Below the pieces are notes generated by a model. The model searched no databases, was not told the origin of the DNA, and saw only the letters and a list, made by a program, of their open reading frames with translations. Below, piece after piece: positions 1,308 through 14,145 of a DNA stretch of 21,173 bases. Origin of the DNA: a virus. The translations under genes and the position numbers were made by a program. Numbering within the stretch: the first letter of the stretch is position 1; each line of letters begins with the position of its first letter. The stretch lies in IMG/VR virus record IMGVR_UViG_3300042691_032562, positions 1-21,173 of that record; one strand, given 5' to 3'.

Positions 1308-1338
1308 AAATATAATATCAGAATTTCTAGAAGCCAAA
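1308..1338 (-). promoter_or_regulatory. Bacteroidota-type promoter, copy 1
   Basis: On the minus strand TTTGGCTT (1338-1331) is followed after 16 bases by TATATTT (1314-1308) and then A. TTTG to TATATTT is 20 bases, inside the known TTTG-N19-21-TAnnTTTG consensus of the Bacteroidota primary sigma factor. It directly abuts the stop codon of the gene at 1339-1848 and lies 23 bases before the start at 1284. The spacer is 12/16 identical to that of copy 3. Confidence 0.8.
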
Positions 1339-1848
1339 TTATTCCCACCATCTTTCAATATTTCTTTCCATTATCTTGAAAAGTAACTTACGAGCACGGT
1401 CATGATTCATTCGAGACATATACATGGCTATTCTATGTTTATCTGGGTTATTATGTATATGCTGGCTTACTACTTCTTTATATACAAGTGGATACTTGTT
1501 AAAGTAATCATCTAAATTATCTGAGATGTGTTCTATTTCTAATCTAAAATTAGTTGTTCCTTCAATTGGGGTGAAATTAAATTTTGATTCTTCATAGTCA
1601 GAAGACTCCATATCATAATACTCAGTTTGAATCTTATCTATCAAACGAACACATAACATCATAATCTCAGCGTCACGTTTTGCTCGTGTTCGGAAATTTC
1701 TGTTACCAATATATTTTGCTTGATTTTTTAATTTGAATTTAAGAATCTCAAATATGTAATGATCATCCCAATCCTCATCTTTCCATATAATAGGAAACCA
1801 ACGTATTAGGTTTTTTATTTTCCTAAAAAAGGTTTTTATCATCCACAT
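1339..1848 (-). CDS. Conserved phage protein of unknown function
   Basis: The protein has 169 residues, rich in aromatic and charged residues, with no signal peptide. The N-terminal segment LIRWFPIIWKDEDWDDHYIF (about residues 14-33), followed by a basic helix LKFKLKNQAKYI, recalls hypothetical proteins seen in diverse tailed phages; I make that link from memory and know no function for it. The C-terminal half is helical, ending RKLLFKIMERNIERWWE. The ATG lies one base after the stop codon of the SPFH gene at 1850-2374 (TAG-C-ATG), so the two are translationally coupled. It is the last gene of the unit that starts at promoter copy 2. Confidence 0.75.
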   Translation of the reverse strand: MWMIKTFFRKIKNLIRWFPIIWKDEDWDDHYIFEILKFKLKNQAKYIGNRNFRTRAKRDAEIMMLCVRLIDKIQTEYYDMESSDYEESKFNFTPIEGTTNFRLEIEHISDNLDDYFNKYPLVYKEVVSQHIHNNPDKHRIAMYMSRMNHDRARKLLFKIMERNIERWWE

Positions 1849-1849
1849 G

Positions 1850-2374
1850 CTAACTTAAATTAGAACTTTCATTAAATAACCTTATTGAACGCATTTGGGA
1901 AAAGTCAGTTACTGTTATTTTTTCAATATTGATTCCCCATTGTTTGGCTTCTTTTTTAGCTCCACTAGTTATCAATTTATTTAAATCTGAGGTACATGCT
2001 TCCTGATATGTTTTATTTTTGATAGTTTGAAATATTATTCCACAAGTCATATCAGAAATAGCGTCTATAGCATCATATACTTTAACAGCAAATATTGATA
2101 AATCCTCAATTTCATATTTGATTTGAGCCTTAATAACTACTGATGTTCCATCTTTAGTCACTACACTTTGAGCAGGTAATGTCATGGTAGTAGTCACTAC
2201 AGTGTGAGTGTCTACACTATCAATAAATGGTATTTTAAAATGTAAACCAGGACCAATTATTTTCTTATATTTACCAAATCTAAAAAATGCACCCTCATCA
2301 TATTCTTTTATAACTACAACTGGTAGTATTTGGTCTATAAATTCAATTATAAAATCAATTAACTTGTCAAACAT
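1850..2374 (-). CDS. Stomatin-like SPFH domain protein, short
   Basis: The protein has 174 residues. An N-terminal hydrophobic helix (about 5-23) leads into a stomatin/slipin-type SPFH domain: GAFFRFGKYKKIIGPGLHFK, IPFIDSVDTHTV, LPAQSVVTKDG and IKAQIKYEIEDL are all typical. Stomatins usually continue into a coiled coil of 80-150 residues; here the protein ends soon after VTDF, so it is essentially the SPFH domain alone. It should associate with the membrane and oligomerise. It overlaps the upstream gene by 16 bases and is one base from the downstream gene. A second, longer SPFH protein lies at 1-995. The phage role is unknown; modifying host membrane or protease complexes is conceivable. Confidence 0.85.
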   Translation of the reverse strand: MFDKLIDFIIEFIDQILPVVVIKEYDEGAFFRFGKYKKIIGPGLHFKIPFIDSVDTHTVVTTTMTLPAQSVVTKDGTSVVIKAQIKYEIEDLSIFAVKVYDAIDAISDMTCGIIFQTIKNKTYQEACTSDLNKLITSGAKKEAKQWGINIEKITVTDFSQMRSIRLFNESSNLS

Positions 2375-2601
2375 AATGTTTCCTCCTCAAGTATTTCTTT
2401 AAATTCTACTTCTTTAATATTTCTTAAGAAAAATACCCGATCACCATTTTGATAAACATAATCTGTTTCTGTATATTCCTTCCACAAATCAATTAATTCA
2501 TTAAGTACTTTACCACCGTTAACATTATCTATGAATTTACCTACCCAAACATCCCTAACAATAAGGAATGGAGTGTTATTTAGGGTTATTATATTTTTCA
2601 T
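2359..2601 (-). CDS. Small hypothetical protein
   Basis: The protein has 80 residues and starts MKNIITLNNTPFLIVRDVWV. It has mixed beta and helical character and no cysteine motif or membrane segment; its C-terminus is acidic (EFKEILEEETLCL). No family is recognised. Its 3' end overlaps the start of the stomatin-like gene by 16 bases and its start overlaps the small frame at 2576-2704, as in densely packed phage early operons. Confidence 0.6.
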   Translation of the reverse strand: MKNIITLNNTPFLIVRDVWVGKFIDNVNGGKVLNELIDLWKEYTETDYVYQNGDRVFFLRNIKEVEFKEILEEETLCLTS

Positions 2602-2704
2602 TTAGTATCTCCCATCCTCGTTTTGAAACAATATGATGTGCATCATTACAGAATAATGATTTAAGTATGTTTAAAGTAAAAACACTTTTAATCATTTCCA
2701 TCAT
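2576..2704 (-). CDS. Putative 42-residue protein overlapping both neighbours
   Basis: This is a short frame, MMEMIKSVFTLNILKSLFCN to the stop at 2576-2578. It could start at 2704, 2701 or 2695; the last overlaps the stop codon of the previous gene as ATGATTAA. It overlaps the next gene by 26 bases. The N-terminal half is moderately hydrophobic and the rest polar (HHIVSKRGWEILNEKYNNPK). Position and tight overlaps favour a real gene, but it is short and unrecognised. Confidence 0.4.
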   Translation of the reverse strand: MMEMIKSVFTLNILKSLFCNDAHHIVSKRGWEILNEKYNNPK

Positions 2705-2831
2705 AACGATACTTTTCTCGTCTATATGCTTTACTATTTGGTTCAGTGCGTTGAATCATTTTTCTACGTATGATTTGAGCAACATGACGTTCACTTAATC
2801 CATCAATAGTATTTTTATTTTTCTTAGCCAT
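2688..2831 (-). CDS. Small basic protein, first gene of its unit
   Basis: This 47-residue protein begins MAKKNKNTIDGLSERHVAQI and continues with RRKMIQRTEPNSKAYRREKY. It is strongly basic and mainly helical, suggesting nucleic-acid or RNA-polymerase binding, but no family is recognised. Its ATG lies 18 bases downstream of the TATATTT box of promoter copy 2, which supports it as a real gene. Its stop overlaps the next small frame. Confidence 0.65.
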   Translation of the reverse strand: MAKKNKNTIDGLSERHVAQIIRRKMIQRTEPNSKAYRREKYRYDGND

Positions 2832-2849
2832 GTTTTATTCATTTGTGAT

Positions 2850-2880
2850 AAATATAACTAAAAAATCATGGAAAGCCAAA
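2850..2880 (-). promoter_or_regulatory. Bacteroidota-type promoter, copy 2
   Basis: Minus-strand TTTGGCTT (2880-2873), 16-base spacer, TATATTT (2856-2850) followed by A. It begins five bases after the first base of the upstream stop codon (2885-2887) and lies 18 bases before the ATG at 2831. Both hexamer-like blocks and the spacing are identical to the other three copies, while the spacer sequence differs. Confidence 0.8.
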
Positions 2881-2884
2881 CTTA

Positions 2885-3058
2885 TTATATGATTCCTAAC
2901 TCTTTTTTGATTTGTGTATGAGCCATATCGTAATAATCAATCATACGTAAATTAGGGTTAGTCTGTTTATATTCAGACATATATTTTTCTAATACATCCA
3001 AATCTCCTCTTTGATGAGCCTGATATAGTATTTCTTCAAGTCTTTCTTCGTTAGTCAT
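2885..3058 (-). CDS. Small helical hypothetical protein
   Basis: The protein has 57 residues: MTNEERLEEILYQAHQRGDL, then VLEKYMSEYKQTNPNLRMID and a C-terminal helix. It is acidic and predicted all-helical, with no motif recognised. Its ATG overlaps the stop codon of the preceding gene (ATGACTAA), good evidence for coupled translation. It is the last gene of the unit headed by promoter copy 3; promoter copy 2 follows immediately. Confidence 0.65.
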   Translation of the reverse strand: MTNEERLEEILYQAHQRGDLDVLEKYMSEYKQTNPNLRMIDYYDMAHTQIKKELGII

Positions 3059-3263
3059 AATTTAAAACTTTATTTCGTTGATGTCTAAATAAAATATTGA
3101 TGTATTTAATATAACTTATAAGTAATTTACTATCTATTTTATAACTCCAATAGTTAGTGAAATTAACAATCATCAATTTAGCTCCAAGTAAATGTTCCTC
3201 AGTTTTGCAAGACTGTATCACATTTATTACTTTGTGAAAGTGATGTGTTAATTTTTCATTCAT
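3051..3263 (-). CDS. Small hypothetical protein
   Basis: The protein has 70 residues and begins MNEKLTHHFHKVINVIQSCK; it is rich in K, I, N and aromatic residues and predicted helical. A His-rich start (HHFH) and one cysteine do not form a recognisable metal site. It sits two bases downstream of the 114-residue gene and overlaps the next gene start by eight bases. No family is recognised. Confidence 0.6.
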   Translation of the reverse strand: MNEKLTHHFHKVINVIQSCKTEEHLLGAKLMIVNFTNYWSYKIDSKLLISYIKYINILFRHQRNKVLNYD

Positions 3264-3265
3264 AG

Positions 3266-3610
3266 TTACCTATAAATATATTGTGACTTATCTATTCTTT
3301 GATCTTCAAAATAATGATTTTCACCAGGCCTTATAATTCGTTTAGGTATAACATCATTAGGGTAAACATAACCTTTTTTAGTCATGTCTTTTAATCTAAT
3401 GTTTGTTTCATATAGAAAAACAGGACCATTATACTCTTCATAATATGGTTGATTCTGTTTATTAAATTTCATAATACGTCTAGGACCATTAAAACTCCTA
3501 AAACGATTACAAGTTACTCGATTCCATTCACCTGATTCAAGCACCTCAGTACTTAATTGAGTTGGAAAATCATAAATTAATTTAACTGTATTACCTTTTT
3601 TCTCACCCAT
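3266..3610 (-). CDS. Hypothetical protein, 114 residues
   Basis: The protein is polar and basic, starting MGEKKGNTVKLIYDFPTQLS, with many Arg, Asn, Pro and Tyr residues (NRFRSFNGPRRIMKFNKQNQ). Beta structure is likely and no membrane segment is present. It lies one base downstream of the small membrane protein gene in a unit of seven tightly packed genes. I do not recognise a family; a nucleic-acid-binding role would fit its charge but is only a guess. Confidence 0.65.
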   Translation of the reverse strand: MGEKKGNTVKLIYDFPTQLSTEVLESGEWNRVTCNRFRSFNGPRRIMKFNKQNQPYYEEYNGPVFLYETNIRLKDMTKKGYVYPNDVIPKRIIRPGENHYFEDQRIDKSQYIYR

Positions 3611-3611
3611 T

Positions 3612-3950
3612 TTATTTTACAAATAACTGAATTAATAGAATACAAAACGCTAAAAACAAACATATACCTGTTTTAGGAGTGATTGGTTCACCAAATAAAA
3701 CTATTGATAGAGTAGCGAATACCATTGTACCAATTGCGAAACCAATCAAACGTGAAGGCCATAGTTGACCATCAAAATGTTCAACCATAAACCTAACTGA
3801 GAACATAAACAGAGCTGAAATAGGAATACCTAGTAACACTACTGCCCACATTTTTTCTTTCATCCATTCCCACTTATATACACCTTGTAGTTGGATAAAG
3901 GTTAGCACTTGTGCTACTAAACCTAATAGTATTCCATATAATAATTTCAT
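3612..3950 (-). CDS. Small multi-pass membrane protein (DMT/SMR-like shape)
   Basis: The 112-residue protein has four hydrophobic segments, at about residues 3-20, 34-53, 65-87 and 92-111 (LFVK C-terminus). Conserved-looking features are LLGLVAQVLTFIQLQGVYKW near the start, a charged loop HFDGQLWPSRLIGFAIG, and FGEPITPKTGICLFLA before the last segment. Length and four-helix layout resemble small multidrug-resistance/EamA-type half-transporters, but no diagnostic Glu in the first helix is seen, so the resemblance is topological only. It overlaps the upstream gene by four bases. An inner-membrane location is expected; the substrate or partner is unknown. Confidence 0.7.
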   Translation of the reverse strand: MKLLYGILLGLVAQVLTFIQLQGVYKWEWMKEKMWAVVLLGIPISALFMFSVRFMVEHFDGQLWPSRLIGFAIGTMVFATLSIVLFGEPITPKTGICLFLAFCILLIQLFVK

Positions 3951-4183
3951 ATGTAAATTTGTTCTAATTTATCTAATGTAAGTCTATTTAAAGTTCTAAA
4001 CTGTGAATCAAAATCAAGAGGTTTAGCGTCATCAAAATCATCTGAGAATATTAATTCTCGTCCACCACTTTTTAATCCAACCCATACTTGAAGTTGATCA
4101 TTCATAACAATGAATGGTTTATAGTCAGGATCACTCTTAATGAGATCAGCCTTTGTTTTTTTCTTTTTCTTAGATATGCTCAT
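3947..4183 (-). CDS. Small hypothetical protein with basic N-terminus
   Basis: The protein has 78 residues from the ATG at 4183 (a TTG directly upstream is a less likely start). It begins with a lysine run (MSISKKKKKTKADLIKSDPD), followed by an acidic beta-rich body (LQVWVGLKSGGRELIFSDDF). No family is recognised. The start overlaps the preceding gene by 14 bases and the stop overlaps the next gene by four bases. Confidence 0.6.
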   Translation of the reverse strand: MSISKKKKKTKADLIKSDPDYKPFIVMNDQLQVWVGLKSGGRELIFSDDFDDAKPLDFDSQFRTLNRLTLDKLEQIYI

Positions 4184-4403
4184 CAAGTTCAGGTATTGCT
4201 CCTAGTTCTTCTAATTTAACCCACACTCTTACTTTCCATAAGTCTACTTTAACACCATCTAACTCAGTAGTTTCATCTACTGTTTCTTGAGCTAGAATCA
4301 ACAAACATTGATCCAATGTTTCAATGGCTTCATCAGTTTCATTGTTTTTGATTTGCTTAAGAGCTTTCTTCCATGTGTTAGTAATCTTCCCTACTGTCTT
4401 CAT
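4170..4403 (-). CDS. Small helical acidic protein
   Basis: The protein has 77 residues and begins MKTVGKITNTWKKALKQIKN; it continues with acidic helices (DEAIETLDQCLLILAQETVD). The pattern of two to three amphipathic helices could resemble a TPR-like hairpin, but the protein is too short to call. It overlaps the upstream SWIM gene by four bases and the downstream gene by 14. No family is recognised. Confidence 0.6.
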   Translation of the reverse strand: MKTVGKITNTWKKALKQIKNNETDEAIETLDQCLLILAQETVDETTELDGVKVDLWKVRVWVKLEELGAIPELDEHI

Positions 4404-4741
4404 AGTGTTTTTTCCTTTATAACTTGTTTAATGTGTTTACAAACTCGATCTTTACTTCTGTAATAACCAGGGCATGTACAGTAGTATTTATTAAATCGTT
4501 TAGTGATACGATATGTTTCACCACTTGAACTAGATTTAATGTCAATAAATTCAGGTTTCATTTGAACTGATTCATTGTCCTCCCTAATCCAAACAATATC
4601 ATTTAATGTAGTTCCAAACGGTATATTCACCCACCATGGTACAATTGCTAATGTTCTTGTTAGATCAACAATCATAGGTGGTATCATGCCACCAACTACA
4701 TGGTGTTTACCGTCTTTGAAGTAATAACTACGTTCACTCAT
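4400..4741 (-). CDS. SWIM zinc-finger protein
   Basis: The protein has 113 residues. The C-terminal part (about 75-110) carries a SWIM-type zinc motif CxC-x10-CxH: Cys88, Cys90, Cys101 and His103 in YYCTCPGYYRSKDRVCKHIK. SWIM fingers bind zinc and mediate DNA or protein contacts in bacterial SNF2 helicases, transposases and other proteins. Here it is a stand-alone small protein with an N-terminal part (residues 1-70, containing VPWWVNIPFGTTLNDIVWI) of unknown fold. It is the first gene after promoter copy 3 (17 bases from TATATTT to ATG), hence probably expressed early. Targeting a host nucleic-acid protein is possible but unproven. Confidence 0.8.
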   Translation of the reverse strand: MSERSYYFKDGKHHVVGGMIPPMIVDLTRTLAIVPWWVNIPFGTTLNDIVWIREDNESVQMKPEFIDIKSSSSGETYRITKRFNKYYCTCPGYYRSKDRVCKHIKQVIKEKTL

Positions 4742-4758
4742 AACCTTAATTTATACCT

Positions 4759-4789
4759 AAATATAACATCAAGATTTCTGGAAGCCAAA
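4759..4789 (-). promoter_or_regulatory. Bacteroidota-type promoter, copy 3
   Basis: Minus-strand TTTGGCTT (4789-4782), 16-base spacer, TATATTT (4765-4759) followed by A. It lies two bases downstream of a hairpin terminator and 17 bases before the SWIM gene ATG. The spacer closely resembles that of copy 1, suggesting that a promoter cassette was duplicated. Confidence 0.8.
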
Positions 4790-4791
4790 CA

Positions 4792-4813
4792 AGGGGTTAA
4801 TTTCTTAACCCCT
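4792..4813 (-). terminator. Hairpin terminator between two units
   Basis: On the minus strand, AGGGGTTAA and TTAACCCCT form a perfect nine-base-pair stem closed by GAAA, a GNRA tetraloop, followed by TTGTTTGG, a weak U-rich tail. The stop codon of the 38-residue gene (4797-4799) lies inside the 3' arm, and promoter copy 3 starts two bases beyond the stem. Confidence 0.75.
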
Positions 4814-4913
4814 GTTGTTCAATTTCAATATCTAATGTCAAAAGTATACAGAATTGTTCTAATTTATCCCAATGCTTTTGAGCCATGTATGCCAGATATT
4901 CATCCGGTACCAT
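4797..4913 (-). CDS. Small protein ending inside a terminator
   Basis: The 38-residue frame begins MVPDEYLAYMAQKHWDKLEQ and ends IEQQGLRN. It is acidic and helical and unrecognised. Its stop codon lies in the terminator stem. It starts 10 bases downstream of the 50-residue gene. Position and in-frame placement right up to the terminator support it. Confidence 0.5.
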   Translation of the reverse strand: MVPDEYLAYMAQKHWDKLEQFCILLTLDIEIEQQGLRN

Positions 4914-4923
4914 CTCGAGATAA

Positions 4924-5076
4924 TTATTCCCCGTCATATTCTAATGCTGGGTGATACTTAGTAACTCGTTTTTGTTTTGGATTTGTTGTTTTTTGTTTGC
5001 GTTTACGTTTTGATTCAAGTACGTGCAACCAATCTTTAAAACATTCTAAACGTTGTTGTGCTGAATTTTTACTCAT
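4924..5076 (-). CDS. Small basic protein
   Basis: The 50-residue protein begins MSKNSAQQRLECFKDWLHVL, with a strongly basic middle (ESKRKRKQKTTNPKQKRVTK) and a short acidic tail (EYDGE). The charge suggests nucleic-acid binding. The leader contains an unusual purine-rich AAGGACAAGG about 7 bases before the ATG, one of the few Shine-Dalgarno-like sites here. No family is recognised. Confidence 0.6.
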   Translation of the reverse strand: MSKNSAQQRLECFKDWLHVLESKRKRKQKTTNPKQKRVTKYHPALEYDGE

Positions 5077-5131
5077 AACTTAACCTTGTCCTTTATATGG
5101 TTTTTTGTAATTTTTACTATTTTTATTTATA

Positions 5132-5515
5132 CTAGTTTTTTTCTTCGAGTGAATCCCCGGACGTTTTTTTCTTGGTTTTTCTTTCTTTGACTGGGTTTGG
5201 ATCTTTAGGGCCATGTTCTTTTTCTGTTAATTTAGTTATAGCTTCTACTATTTGAGAACATTCTTCATATAATTCTTTCTCAACGTAGTATTTTAAATTT
5301 TCTTGTAATGTTTCTATAAAGAAACGTCTTTCTAAAGTAATATCATAAGTAGCATTATCATCAGTACAATTAACTGATAGTATATGTACATGTTTTTTAC
5401 GTGAAGTGATATTGTTCAATATAGCTTCAACAATCGCTTTAGATATGATGAAGTCTTTTCTATCAATCATTTCTTGAAATTCATCACTGTTTTTTAAAGT
5501 AATTTCAGTAGCCAT
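5132..5515 (-). CDS. Hypothetical protein with charged C-terminal tail
   Basis: The protein has 127 residues. Residues 1-95 look like a mixed alpha/beta domain (MATEITLKNSDEFQEMIDRK, then HVHILSVNCTDDNATYDITL) followed by a long amphipathic helix. Residues 96-127 form a disordered tail rich in K, E and P (KERKTKKKTSGDSLEEKN). No motif is recognised. It begins one base after the stop codon of the 52-residue gene. Confidence 0.65.
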   Translation of the reverse strand: MATEITLKNSDEFQEMIDRKDFIISKAIVEAILNNITSRKKHVHILSVNCTDDNATYDITLERRFFIETLQENLKYYVEKELYEECSQIVEAITKLTEKEHGPKDPNPVKERKTKKKTSGDSLEEKN

Positions 5516-5516
5516 A

Positions 5517-5675
5517 TTAAAATAAGTCTAAAAAGTTAGTATTAATATCTTTTCCTTTAAGTTTATTCATCTTTTCATCATTAACTAACATTTTGGTAGC
5601 TAAACGTTCTAGATGTTTAGACTTAATAAGATCATAATTATCTATGATATCTTTATGTTCTTTCTTCTTCTCCAT
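5517..5675 (-). CDS. Small charged helical protein
   Basis: The 52-residue protein begins MEKKKEHKDIIDNYDLIKSK and is nearly all helical, ending NTNFLDLF. Its ATG lies 13 bases after the stop of the HTH/zinc-binding gene, and its stop is one base before the next ATG. The final LDLF resembles the short linear motifs bacteria use to bind the sliding clamp, but four residues are weak evidence. Confidence 0.6.
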   Translation of the reverse strand: MEKKKEHKDIIDNYDLIKSKHLERLATKMLVNDEKMNKLKGKDINTNFLDLF

Positions 5676-5688
5676 TCATTAATAAATA

Positions 5689-6330
5689 TTAAATCCGACT
5701 TATAAACTCACTTCCATCTTCAGGTGGTAATGATTGATCTAATCCTAATTCCTTTAATCGCTGTAATGTATAATCATCTAGCTCCCATTCCACATTACTT
5801 TCATTTACTGGTTTATGATCTTCAAGACCTTCAATTTGTTTATTATTAAACACATCACCAATCATTAAGAAATAACAATTATAACATAACATTTCCATAT
5901 TTTCTAATCTGTAATGTTGTTTATTATTATCCTTAAAATGTAGTATAAGTGGGATTTTATAATCAGACACTCGACGTTCATGAAATCCACAATTAGAACA
6001 TTCTTCCTTTAAATAACCTTCTTCAATCAACCTATACTTTATTTTCTGAGGATTGAAATGAGCCGGATCAATTCTACCTTCTATAACATCTAATAATGCT
6101 GGGTCTTTTTTTCTAGTACCATTATTGGATAAGAATTTAGGAATGCCTTTACCTGATTGATTTTTATGTGCTTCAAATAATGTTATTCCGTCTTCATTCT
6201 TATAGAACTTCATCCATTTTTTCATATGGATATAAGACACATTCAAGTATCTAGCGGCAGCACGAACAGACTTAGTCTTACTCATTGCTAACACTACTTG
6301 ATCTTTAGAAAGATGTTTTGCTTTAGGCAT
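5689..6330 (-). CDS. Helix-turn-helix plus degenerate HNH-type zinc protein
   Basis: The protein has 213 residues. Residues 8-42 look like a helix-turn-helix (SVRAAARYLNVSYIHMKKWM), suited to DNA binding. Residues 111-154 form an HNH-like module with two CxxC pairs (Cys111/Cys114 and Cys149/Cys152) around LHFKDNNKQHYRLENMEMLC. In active HNH nucleases the first block is usually LHH.DGN and the last is CxxCH; here Phe132 replaces a His and Tyr153 replaces the final His, so catalysis is doubtful while zinc binding looks intact. Similar HTH/zinc proteins are, from memory, common in uncultured marine phages. It may be a DNA-binding or regulatory protein. It lies two bases from the upstream zinc-finger gene. 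Confidence 0.8.
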   Translation of the reverse strand: MPKAKHLSKDQVVLAMSKTKSVRAAARYLNVSYIHMKKWMKFYKNEDGITLFEAHKNQSGKGIPKFLSNNGTRKKDPALLDVIEGRIDPAHFNPQKIKYRLIEEGYLKEECSNCGFHERRVSDYKIPLILHFKDNNKQHYRLENMEMLCYNCYFLMIGDVFNNKQIEGLEDHKPVNESNVEWELDDYTLQRLKELGLDQSLPPEDGSEFISRI

Positions 6331-6332
6331 AA

Positions 6333-6752
6333 TTATTCTTCCATGTCTGAGTTTAAATCATCAAATGCATTACCTATACCATCATGGTCAGATATGCCTA
6401 TATCGTAGTCATCAATTTCTTCTTCAAATGAATTTTCAACCTCTGGTTTATCATCGGTTTCAAAATCGTCTACTGTTGGTATAACCTCATCTTCATCTGT
6501 TGATACAACCTTTGGTGCAGGTGTTTCTTTAACTTGTTTTTTCCAGTTATTCTCAATCTCCATCATGCGATCATAATCTTCCCTTTCAACAGCATATGTT
6601 TCAATCCATGTATGATCACCTTCACCTTTTTGAACAGTTACCGCTACTTTCTTTTCAGCTGTTGAATGTTGAGTGCAAGTTTGTGTGTTAGGTAAGATAG
6701 CAATTCGTCTAGGATCAATCTCAATACCGCATGTAATACATTTTCTACTCAT
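6333..6752 (-). CDS. Zinc-finger protein (DksA/TraR-like) with acidic tail
   Basis: The protein has 139 residues. The N-terminus carries a treble-clef-like zinc motif KCITCGIEIDPRRIAILPNT then CTQHS, with Cys5, Cys8, Cys26 and His29 as likely ligands; the spacing and the RRIAILPNT segment recall DksA/TraR proteins, which bind RNA polymerase. The coiled coil of DksA is not obvious. The C-terminal half (about 80-139) is very acidic and probably disordered (FEEEIDDYDIGISDHDGIGN), a feature of some DNA-mimic or polymerase-binding proteins. A transcriptional role is inferred only. Confidence 0.7.
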   Translation of the reverse strand: MSRKCITCGIEIDPRRIAILPNTQTCTQHSTAEKKVAVTVQKGEGDHTWIETYAVEREDYDRMMEIENNWKKQVKETPAPKVVSTDEDEVIPTVDDFETDDKPEVENSFEEEIDDYDIGISDHDGIGNAFDDLNSDMEE

Positions 6753-6759
6753 ATAACCT

Positions 6760-7134
6760 TTATTTTGTTTTTATTATTTTATCTACTAGAGTCCAAAGAT
6801 CAAGTGGTGTTTTCAACTTGTATTCTTTTTTAGGTTTATCTTTAATTGTTACTTCAATAGTAAGTAAGTTTCCATTTTTATCATAACGATCATAAACATA
6901 CCATAAAATTAAAGAACTAACAGCATCTCCATATTTAAGATACAATAAGTTCTCAATCATAGTAAAATAATGTTGTTCATATTGATAGAAATCAACTCCT
7001 ACTTGAGACTGAAGTAAATTAGTTCTTAACCAGCATTGTTCAAGAGTAGAAACAATGTCCATAAACATTTCTTTCTCCTCTGATTTATTGTTAAGATTTA
7101 TTTTTAATTTATTTCCAAAATTACTTATGTTCAT
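6760..7134 (-). CDS. Conserved-looking phage protein of unknown function
   Basis: The protein has 124 residues from the ATG at 7134, which overlaps the upstream stop by 14 bases. An alternative ATG at 7068 (MFMDIVSTLEQCWLRTNLLQ) would give 102 residues and is preceded by GGAGAAAG, a Shine-Dalgarno-like purine run; the first 22 residues are low-complexity Asn/Lys, so the shorter form is plausible. The core has VDFYQYEQHYFTMIENLLYL and a WYVYDRYDKNGNLL segment, a pattern I associate from memory with phage hypothetical proteins. No catalytic motif is evident. Confidence 0.65.
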   Translation of the reverse strand: MNISNFGNKLKINLNNKSEEKEMFMDIVSTLEQCWLRTNLLQSQVGVDFYQYEQHYFTMIENLLYLKYGDAVSSLILWYVYDRYDKNGNLLTIEVTIKDKPKKEYKLKTPLDLWTLVDKIIKTK

Positions 7135-7303
7135 TCTTTAATCCTATTGAGTATATTTTAAGAAATTCATTCACAGGCATGTTTTTGATGGCTGCAAAAT
7201 GGTTTGTAGCTTCACCTATATCAGATGATATACATACACCTAATGATTCTTTACGAATGTCTAGATGTGAGTAATAATAATATTTGCCATAGTATTTTTG
7301 CAT
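7121..7303 (-). CDS. Small Tyr-rich protein, possibly leaderless
   Basis: The 60-residue protein begins MQKYYGKYYYYSHLDIRKES and contains GVCISSDIGEATNHFAAIKN; no family is recognised. An upstream in-frame ATG at 7372 would add 23 hydrophobic residues, but that extension would be encoded across promoter copy 4 (7310-7340) and the end of the preceding gene, so I prefer 7303. That ATG is only six bases after the TATATTTG box, so the transcript would have almost no leader. Confidence 0.6.
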   Translation of the reverse strand: MQKYYGKYYYYSHLDIRKESLGVCISSDIGEATNHFAAIKNMPVNEFLKIYSIGLKNEHK

Positions 7304-7309
7304 TATTAC

Positions 7310-7340
7310 AAATATAATAATAAAAAGTTTAAAAGCCAAA
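7310..7340 (-). promoter_or_regulatory. Bacteroidota-type promoter, copy 4
   Basis: Minus-strand TTTGGCTT (7340-7333), 16-base spacer, TATATTT (7316-7310) followed by G, giving a perfect TAnnTTTG. It abuts the stop codon of the glycosyltransferase at 7341. It heads the unit running down to the terminator at 4792-4813. The next start, 7303, is unusually close. Confidence 0.8.
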
Positions 7341-12792: not shown

Positions 12793-14145
12793 TTATTTAT
12801 AATTTTCTAAATAGTATTTTAAATCTTCAGGAGTTCCTAAACCCCACATTCCTTTAACATTAAATGTTCTAATCTGTTTGTAATCCTTAATTGCTTGATT
12901 AAATACAGGACAAACATAAAACTCATTATTCACACGAATATCTTCTTTAATCATTTCTTCAGCATATTTAACAAAATCAGAACCATGTTTCCAATAGTAA
13001 TAACCTACTGTTGCAATATCAGATATTGGTTTTTTCTCAGCTACTTCTGTCACTAAACCTTTATCATCTACTTTAGCAAATGACCATTTTGGGTGTGTAG
13101 CTGTAAATGTAACTATACCTCCATCAGCATTAGTTTCATTCATTTTATACATGAACTCATTTGAATCCCATTCTACAAATTGGTCTGAGTTAGCGAAAAA
13201 GAGTGGATTTTCATTGTTAATATATTCTTTAGCTAATAATGCAGTACAAGCTGCTCCTTCAGTTAAACCATCTGTTTCCACTATTTTACATCCAGGAGTT
13301 AATAAATTTAGTAATGTATCTAAGTTATACTTTTCACGATGTGCTTTTTGTACAACATATATATAATTTGCTTCTAAATTTAAATTTTCAATTACAACCT
13401 GAATCATAGGTTTATTTTTCACTTCAATAAGTGGTTTAGGAAAAGTATATCCTGCTTGTTCAAATCTAGAACCAGCTCCAGCCATTGGAATTAAAACATT
13501 AAGTTTTTCATCTTTCCATTTAGGTATCATATTTGTTTTTTCTTTATTTAAATACTTATTTATATTATTGTAATTAACATCTTTTGGGGAAGTAACTCTC
13601 ATTACATGAGCTTTACTTCTATTTGCTGCTAATAGTCCGTAAGGTGAATCTTCAACAATTAAAGTTTCTTCAGGTAAACATCCCATCATACTCATTGCTT
13701 TCCAGTACATTTCAGGATGGGGTTTACTATTATCAACATCCTCATTTGATAATATTAAATCAAAACGATCAATAATATCAAATTTAGATAACACTGTTAA
13801 TACTGTTTTACGAATACTATTACTACAAACTGCTAATTTATAACCGTTGCTAATTAATAAGTCCATACAAACCTGTAATTGAGTGTTAGGTTTTAGACTT
13901 GATAGTGCTTTTAAAGTATATTTTTGTTTATCATCCCAAATTTGTTTATGAGTGTTAGCTGGTAGATTTTTATGTTTAGTTAACATATCTAACTTTTGGT
14001 TTGTTTTTAATCCATCATAAGTGGATAAATGCTCATCCCAAGATATAGAATATTTCTCACCTAATGCCTTATTTAAAGCATCATAATGTATTTGTTTAGC
14101 TTCTACTAATACACCATCTAAATCAAATATAACTAATTTTATCAT
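12793..14145 (-). CDS. Fused HAD phosphatase and sugar nucleotidyltransferase
   Basis: The 450-residue protein joins two enzymes. Residues 1-205 are a beta-phosphoglucomutase-type HAD hydrolase: motif I VIFDLDGVLVE (Asp8, Asp10), motif II CSNS (107-110), motif III Lys141 in SKPHPEMYWKA, and motif IV VEDSPYG (Glu165, Asp166). Residues 215-450 are a GT-A nucleotidyltransferase: NVLIPMAGAGSRFEQAGYTF, PKPLIEV with Lys237, TEGAAC (295-300), FFANSDQF (317-324, Asp321) and GLGTPEDL. Such transferases make NDP-sugars from sugar-1-phosphates. The HAD half probably removes or shifts a phosphate in the same pathway, giving two successive steps in one chain. The exact sugar cannot be named. It overlaps the GT10 gene by four bases. 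Confidence 0.9.
   Translation of the reverse strand: MIKLVIFDLDGVLVEAKQIHYDALNKALGEKYSISWDEHLSTYDGLKTNQKLDMLTKHKNLPANTHKQIWDDKQKYTLKALSSLKPNTQLQVCMDLLISNGYKLAVCSNSIRKTVLTVLSKFDIIDRFDLILSNEDVDNSKPHPEMYWKAMSMMGCLPEETLIVEDSPYGLLAANRSKAHVMRVTSPKDVNYNNINKYLNKEKTNMIPKWKDEKLNVLIPMAGAGSRFEQAGYTFPKPLIEVKNKPMIQVVIENLNLEANYIYVVQKAHREKYNLDTLLNLLTPGCKIVETDGLTEGAACTALLAKEYINNENPLFFANSDQFVEWDSNEFMYKMNETNADGGIVTFTATHPKWSFAKVDDKGLVTEVAEKKPISDIATVGYYYWKHGSDFVKYAEEMIKEDIRVNNEFYVCPVFNQAIKDYKQIRTFNVKGMWGLGTPEDLKYYLENYK

Follow-up and report, generated by a model that had tools for sequence, protein, structure and literature searches.

What reads four near-identical two-block sites that recur on one strand of a phage genome fragment? 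The fragment is IMG/VR record IMGVR_UViG_3300042691_032562, a 21-kb virus fragment of 21,173 bases according to its record look-up, and the whole stretch is called here the window. The element is TTTGGCTT-N16-TATATTT. An exact scan places it at 1308-1338 (P1), 2850-2880 (P2), 4759-4789 (P3) and 7310-7340 (P4), each time on the minus strand, where nearly all window genes are encoded. This confirms what an earlier note on this DNA had claimed, namely four identical coding-strand motifs and no further full copy on either strand. The opposite strand holds none, and neither do 100 dinucleotide shuffles. The looser pattern TTTG-N20-TANNTTT finds the same four sites only, with 1.8 expected by chance. 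Three of the sites begin at or a few bases from the stop codon of the preceding open reading frame, or ORF (1339, 2885, 7341), and the one at 4789 sits in an intergenic gap. In every case an ATG follows 6-23 nucleotides (nt) past the end of TATATTT. We call these sites class 1. They are probably early or middle promoters read by the host RNA polymerase, comparable to the T4 early promoters in Escherichia coli.

The window gene order, PD-(D/E)XK nuclease, glycosyltransferases, DksA-like and HNH, is the order found in Flavobacterium phage vB_FspM_immuto_2-6A (NC_055915), hereafter immuto. The window nuclease is 43% identical to its immuto counterpart and the best window glycosyltransferase 58%, and the window also encodes a clamp-loader subunit. 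Judging from this gene order, these protein identities and the clamp-loader subunit, the window is a fragment of a T4-like phage from the immuto group (Immutovirus-like). Annotated phages gave no nucleotide match to the window, and Rfam and tRNA searches of it gave no matches.

Seven long related IMG/VR records were read almost whole, piece by piece, together with immuto. In the seven relatives, TTTG-N20-TATATTT occurs 25/0, 31/2, 19/0, 10/0, 11/0, 19/1 and 17/0 times (forward/reverse). The counts of TTTG-Nk-TATATTT peak at k=20 alone; N19 and N21 reach 0-4. In the long phage records, the exact pattern lies almost exclusively on one strand, and the reversed control has zero matches. A de novo dyad search ranked TTGG-N19-TATATT, or its shifted twin TTTG-N20-TATATT, at or near the top in 7/7 relatives. 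In immuto the dyad is GTTG-N20-TATATT, and record G001 has an additional form with TAGG. A weight-matrix scan was run on the relatives and immuto, with the top score in reversed sequence as the threshold. It returned 26-65 forward and 0-2 reverse sites per genome, with 49 predicted sites in immuto; further records gave, for example, 23:0, 18:0, 26:1, 24:0 and 28:1. The motif family was not shown by the more distant relatives RM378 and Mel-JY01. The latter (PP395634.1) is listed as a Microcystis phage, and its portal and glycosyltransferase are 48% and 42% identical to those of the immuto group.

Counted over about 330 sites from eight relatives, GG is the norm, with the second G present in 84-98% outside immuto. 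The following C reaches 45-86%, both T of CTT are weaker, and immuto has GTTGC. GG is nearly fixed and CTT is a preference only. So the GCTT that the earlier note called invariant is so in the four window sites and not in the family. The -33 box also differs by lineage, as TTTGGC, GTTGC or TTAGG. Among the matches listed from IMG/VR, an A comes directly after the motif in 103/133, and 115/131 have an ATG no more than 50 nt downstream. A scan of cell-genome contigs gave mainly isolated chance matches, and there the same values are 26/120 and 68/119. One relative, G007 (IMGVR_UViG_3300032268_000759), carries a class-1 promoter inside a 123-base terminal direct repeat; because of this repeat, the assembly is probably circular and complete.

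Counted from the predicted start, a site consists of YTTGGC(TT) at -36 to -29 and TATATTTA at -12 to -5, with a spacer fixed at 16 nt between them. The spacer frequently ends in GATGT or TTCGT, and some lineages have TG one base ahead of the -10 box. Counted in the E. coli manner, this is TTGGCT-N17-TATATT, with the canonical 17-bp spacing. The start itself is predicted from the distance between TATATTT and the ATG that opens the first ORF. This distance is bimodal, with 45 sites at +5, 16 at +6, three or fewer at any one offset between 8 and 14, and a second, broad mode at 15-31 nt. An independent scan of the collection found at least 120 stretches with offset +5, and of the 111 sites that leave enough room, 105 open an ORF of at least 30 codons. 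At offset +10 the whole collection has 29 stretches, five of which open an ORF. The Flavobacterium johnsoniae polymerase initiates 4-5 nt past the 8-base -7 element (PMC6847099), so the equivalent offset after TATATTT is 5-6, the same place as the ATG peak. Transcription would begin five bases after TATATTT, as the peak supports, and class 1 would share its start register with promoters of the Bacteroidota sigma-ABfr type. Such a sharp +5/+6 peak is the pattern expected of leaderless mRNAs starting with AUG. Leaderless phage mRNAs are predicted for about 70 sites in relatives with an ATG 5-7 nt past TATATTT and, in the window, for ORF 7121-7303 behind P4 (offset 6).

Most sites lie between genes, either 17-31 nt ahead of an ATG or right at one. 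The -7 box is outside ORFs at about 78-94% of sites per genome, although intergenic DNA makes up just 4-8%; a motif found mostly within genes, the outcome that the earlier note had set against its own proposal, is not what we see. A class-1 site stands ahead of the gene for the single-stranded DNA-binding protein (SSB) in 6/7 and ahead of DUF932 in 5/5 genomes where these were found. It also precedes polA in four genomes and primase in four, and class-1 sites are dense in arrays of small ORFs. In the genomes read, none stands directly before terminase, major capsid protein, sheath, tube or tape measure. Structural blocks have 15 sites in 334 kb, compared with 2.2-4.8 per 10 kb elsewhere. Many coding-strand sites before non-structural genes are what T4-type early promoters display.

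At P3, TTTGGC and TATATTT are mismatch-free, with a diverging spacer, in 9/9 close relatives of the ORF behind it (at least 57% identity). The P1 core is retained in L341, also with a diverged spacer, and the P2 core is at the matching place in L328, L329, L331 and L395. These patterns suggest that selection acts on both boxes at P3, and likewise at P1 and P2 where relatives keep the gene order. Sites related to P4 follow the matching glycosyltransferase in G002, L012, L108, L329 and L335. Homologues of ORF 1339-1848 keep the downstream site in just 2/44, because the following gene differs.

The class-1 sites can be compared with the promoters of the presumed hosts. The Bacteroidota housekeeping promoter has TTTG at -33 and TAHHTTTG at -7, and in F. 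johnsoniae the G at -5 is nearly invariant and the -33 element weak, hardly visible (PMC6847099). Class 1 shares with it TTTG about 20 nt before TAnnTTT and the initiation 4-5 nt past the -7 element. It differs by A at -5, a strong TTGGC and a spacing fixed at 20. More precisely, the TTTG expected of a sigma-ABfr promoter about 19-21 nt upstream is present, rigidly as TTTG-N20, whereas the -7 element TANNTTTG with its near-invariant G is not: A occupies -5 in 78-96% of phage sites. The fit to the housekeeping consensus that had been claimed does not hold in these two respects, the base at -5 and the range of spacings. In the phages, TAHHTTTG is not enriched (35 against 33 in reversed text). 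The same kind of upstream test in hosts shows it enriched, 40/16, 41/7, 50/17 and 30/4. TATATTTA, in turn, is enriched upstream in phages and not in host DNA. Judged by these counts, the class-1 code of TATATTTA plus a strong TTGGC differs from the host code of TAHHTTTG plus a weak -33. Likewise, the bacterial family to which a Polaribacter metagenome-assembled genome belongs has five copies of TTTGGCTT-N16-TATATTTA in 149 genomes, equal to the control. The two richest phage records (155-163 kb) have 8-10 exact copies each. The extended -33 box is phage-specific in this comparison, as the earlier note had suspected.

One Bacteroidota host has a similar element. Proteiniphilum repeats TTTGGCTT-N16-TATATTTG ahead of genes, with G at -5. 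In Proteiniphilum acetatigenes DSM 18083 (L220, L266-L268), tens of dispersed promoter-like repeats read ...CAAACAAG[TC]TTGGCTT..TCTCTCGGCTTTCAC-TATATTTG, and the copies looked at are ahead of genes. They share TTTGGCTT-N16-TATATTT with class 1, and they differ by the G at -5, by long conserved flanks and by being a host chromosomal repeat. Since these repeats stand before genes, this -33 box and spacing can probably serve a host polymerase within Bacteroidota.

The most likely explanation is that class-1 sites are read by the host RNA polymerase, carrying a housekeeping sigma of the sigma-ABfr type, without further help. Near-perfect and rigidly spaced, the sites would switch on host-takeover and replication genes. 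Late genes would then use a one-block motif, AATATTTATAA (class 2), probably through a phage gp55-like sigma that has region 2 only. We infer this division, with host sigma on class 1 and the gp55-like protein on class 2, partly from what the phages encode: no sigma region 4 was found in them, so a two-block promoter with a -33 element needs the host sigma or another factor. Neither was a host-type promoter class found in the phages, which makes class 1 the leading candidate for the first transcripts. The proposal of an early-type class of phage promoters in a Bacteroidota phage is supported at the sequence level by the motif family, its coding-strand placement and its gene class, and equally by the geometry, the start register, the non-host code and the sigma-like gene. 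The T4 early promoters, read by host sigma-70, are the closest parallel (PMC1524935). They too are many near-identical two-block sites on one strand before early, small host-takeover ORFs, stronger than the host consensus and with a lineage-specific consensus among relatives. Class 1 differs in its Bacteroidota-type host, in TTTGGC/TATATTTA instead of GTTTAC/TATAAT, in the lack of an UP-like A tract in its consensus and in its presence before SSB, polA and primase.

Several observations weigh against this explanation. The systematic loss of the host G at -5, together with a -33 box that far exceeds the F. johnsoniae one in strength, is unlike a plain host copy, and a modified polymerase would explain it equally well. 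SSB, polA and primase are middle genes in T4, so class 1 may hold more than one time class. Neither the class-1 nor the class-2 motif is found in 139 of 445 gaps, which leaves room for a third promoter class. The Bacteroidota host of the window phage is deduced from its relatives, the immuto group. Finally, the gp55-like sigma is called from weak sequence scores plus fold support.

The main competitor is a polymerase altered by the phage, which we consider unlikely. A MotA-like activator, virion-borne or made first, would bind TTTGGCTT, or a modifier would act on sigma. GGC would then be the site of the factor, and A at -5 would keep the unmodified host sigma off, according to a middle-promoter logic. 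The A in place of the near-invariant host G (PMC6847099) and the strong, rigidly spaced -33 box, unlike that of F. johnsoniae, are in its favor. So are the sites ahead of SSB, polA and primase, and a -33 box that varies by lineage, as a co-evolving reader would yield. The T4 middle promoters with their MotA box (PMC1524935) also have GCTT in the -30 region, a -10-like box and replication genes behind them. In T4 this GCTT is at -30 to -27, near the -32 to -29 observed here. However, class 1 has it about 2 nt further upstream, keeps TTTG, and leaves 16 nt after GCTT instead of the 13-15 of T4 in the same counting, so it does not reproduce the Mot box arrangement (TGCTTtA, 11-13 nt, -10 box). 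This resemblance led us to look for MotA, and none was found: PF09114 had no match in 24 records at E 1, a search that a diverged activator might escape. The AsiA family was not found in 18 records, and phrog_12791 gave one weak match only. Moreover, no host-type class was found with which the plain host polymerase could begin infection, so the required factor would have to travel in the virion. In its extended form, this alternative gives the phage its own promoter code. A factor delivered or made first would retune the host sigma to TTGGC/TATATTTA from the first minute, and the gp55-like sigma would switch to the one-block late promoters. We regard this version as doubtful too. If it were true, one polymerase state would read the promoters of the phage, with A at -5 and a strong -33, and another those of the host, with G at -5 and a weak -33.

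Two other explanations fare worse. The sites could be DNA repeats that serve mainly some other purpose, as a terminator or a replication or recombination site, and only look like promoters; terminator-like hairpins at 27% of them would suit this. Nevertheless, the majority of sites lack a hairpin, both boxes are fixed around a spacer that varies freely, and the ATG offsets peak at the predicted start. We think this quite improbable. Ordinary host housekeeping promoters with a chance GCTT are the least credible of all, even though TTTG and TAnnTTT are common to the host -33 and -7 elements (PMC6847099). This idea is already contradicted by hundreds of sites in relatives with a single spacing, GG nearly fixed and A instead of G at -5, and by the lack of enrichment in the 149 host-family genomes.

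In the literature searched, no mapped early or late promoters were found for Bacteroidota phages. Class 1 offers a rule for early promoters that covers whole genomes and predicts the start base, in a large T4-like group that has a cultured member (immuto), and is a strong candidate promoter for Flavobacterium. It also raises the question of why phage promoters avoid the key G of the host. The same phage group also gains a predicted class of late promoters and a candidate for its late sigma.

The one-block motif AATATTTATAA stands ahead of structural genes (tube, sheath, portal) in G001-G004, G007, G008, G013 and immuto. Its coding:reverse ratio over all genomes is 67:2. It has an ATG peak of its own, which puts the motif one base further upstream, close to where the T4 late box lies, though in small numbers that make it a lead only. 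This motif is probably a late promoter class. The T4 late box itself, TATAAATA, was tried and rejected, as it is not enriched on the coding strand near ATGs.

A gene matching the T4 gp55 profile (phrog_234) is present in 10/18 records, in one syntenic place where this could be checked. In immuto it is gp118 (YP_010114565.1, L143:28174-28872), annotated as hypothetical. Its orthologues are L132:7008-7718, L135:16814-17515, L312:9151-9873, L296:16548-17363 and L318:128-835, and they share a place after a phosphohydrolase gene. Sigma70_r2 is the best Pfam match for five of six, weakly, with one above the cut-off. Sigma70_r4 had no match in 18 records, and the profile of the protein found no solved structure by sequence. 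In an AlphaFold model (mean pLDDT 72), residues 13-115 match sigma domain 2 chains with Z 8-11. Sigma domain 2 accounts for most of the top structural matches, over about 90-105 residues, with weak Foldseek E-values. Domain 2 without region 4 is the build of a T4-type late sigma, which acts with the sliding clamp to recognise late promoters of one block. On these sequence and model data, gp118 and its orthologues are candidates for a previously unrecognised gp55-like late sigma with region 2 only.

Terminator-like hairpins accompany part of the class-1 sites. In the window, AGGGGTTAAGAAATTAACCCCT at 4792-4813 (minus strand) has a T-rich tail (TGTTTGG) that overlaps the P3 -33 box. The earlier note spoke of compact transcription units, which is only partly right: a terminator hairpin stands at this junction alone, and transcription may run through the other three. 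A closely similar hairpin is at the P3 position in L328-L331 and L335. In L332, L333 and L336, a GGCC-TTCG-GGCC hairpin lies inside the promoter spacer instead, and L334 has an imperfect one (GGGTC). Overall, 89/335 sites have such a hairpin next to or inside the promoter; the share is 1.4% in shuffled sequence and 2% where other ORFs start. In 72 of the 89 it overlaps the -33 box or the spacer. The class-1 sites of G002, G007, G029 and L332-L336 form hairpins from the promoter's own GGC between the boxes. In an arm-swap control, stems of at least 6 were observed at 18% of sites against 12-14% after swapping, and stems of at least 10 at 5.4% against 1.7-4.1%. Part of the enrichment therefore comes from the GGC of the motif itself, and terminator-promoter overlap is likely at a subset of sites only.

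The predicted units behind the window promoters are all on the minus strand. P1, with a predicted start at about 1302, would transcribe ORF 1015-1284 (89 amino acids, no family) and then the SPFH-like ORF beyond. P2 (start at about 2844) would serve a 47-amino-acid ORF at about 2688-2831, read from the sequence, followed by ORF 2359-2601, the Band-7 ORF 1850-2374 and ORF 1339-1848. From P3 (start at about 4753), the unit would begin with ORF 4400-4741 (113 amino acids, no family) and continue into the subsequent ORFs. P4, with its start at 7303-7304, has ORF 7121-7303 as the first of its unit.

Two window ORFs are SPFH/Band-7-like (prohibitin/stomatin type). ORF 1850-2374 has a Band_7 match by test, and the second one, at 1-996, was judged by eye. 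Within the glycosyltransferase cluster, a single protein encoded at 12793-14145 joins an N-terminal HAD phosphatase domain to a C-terminal nucleotidyltransferase domain.

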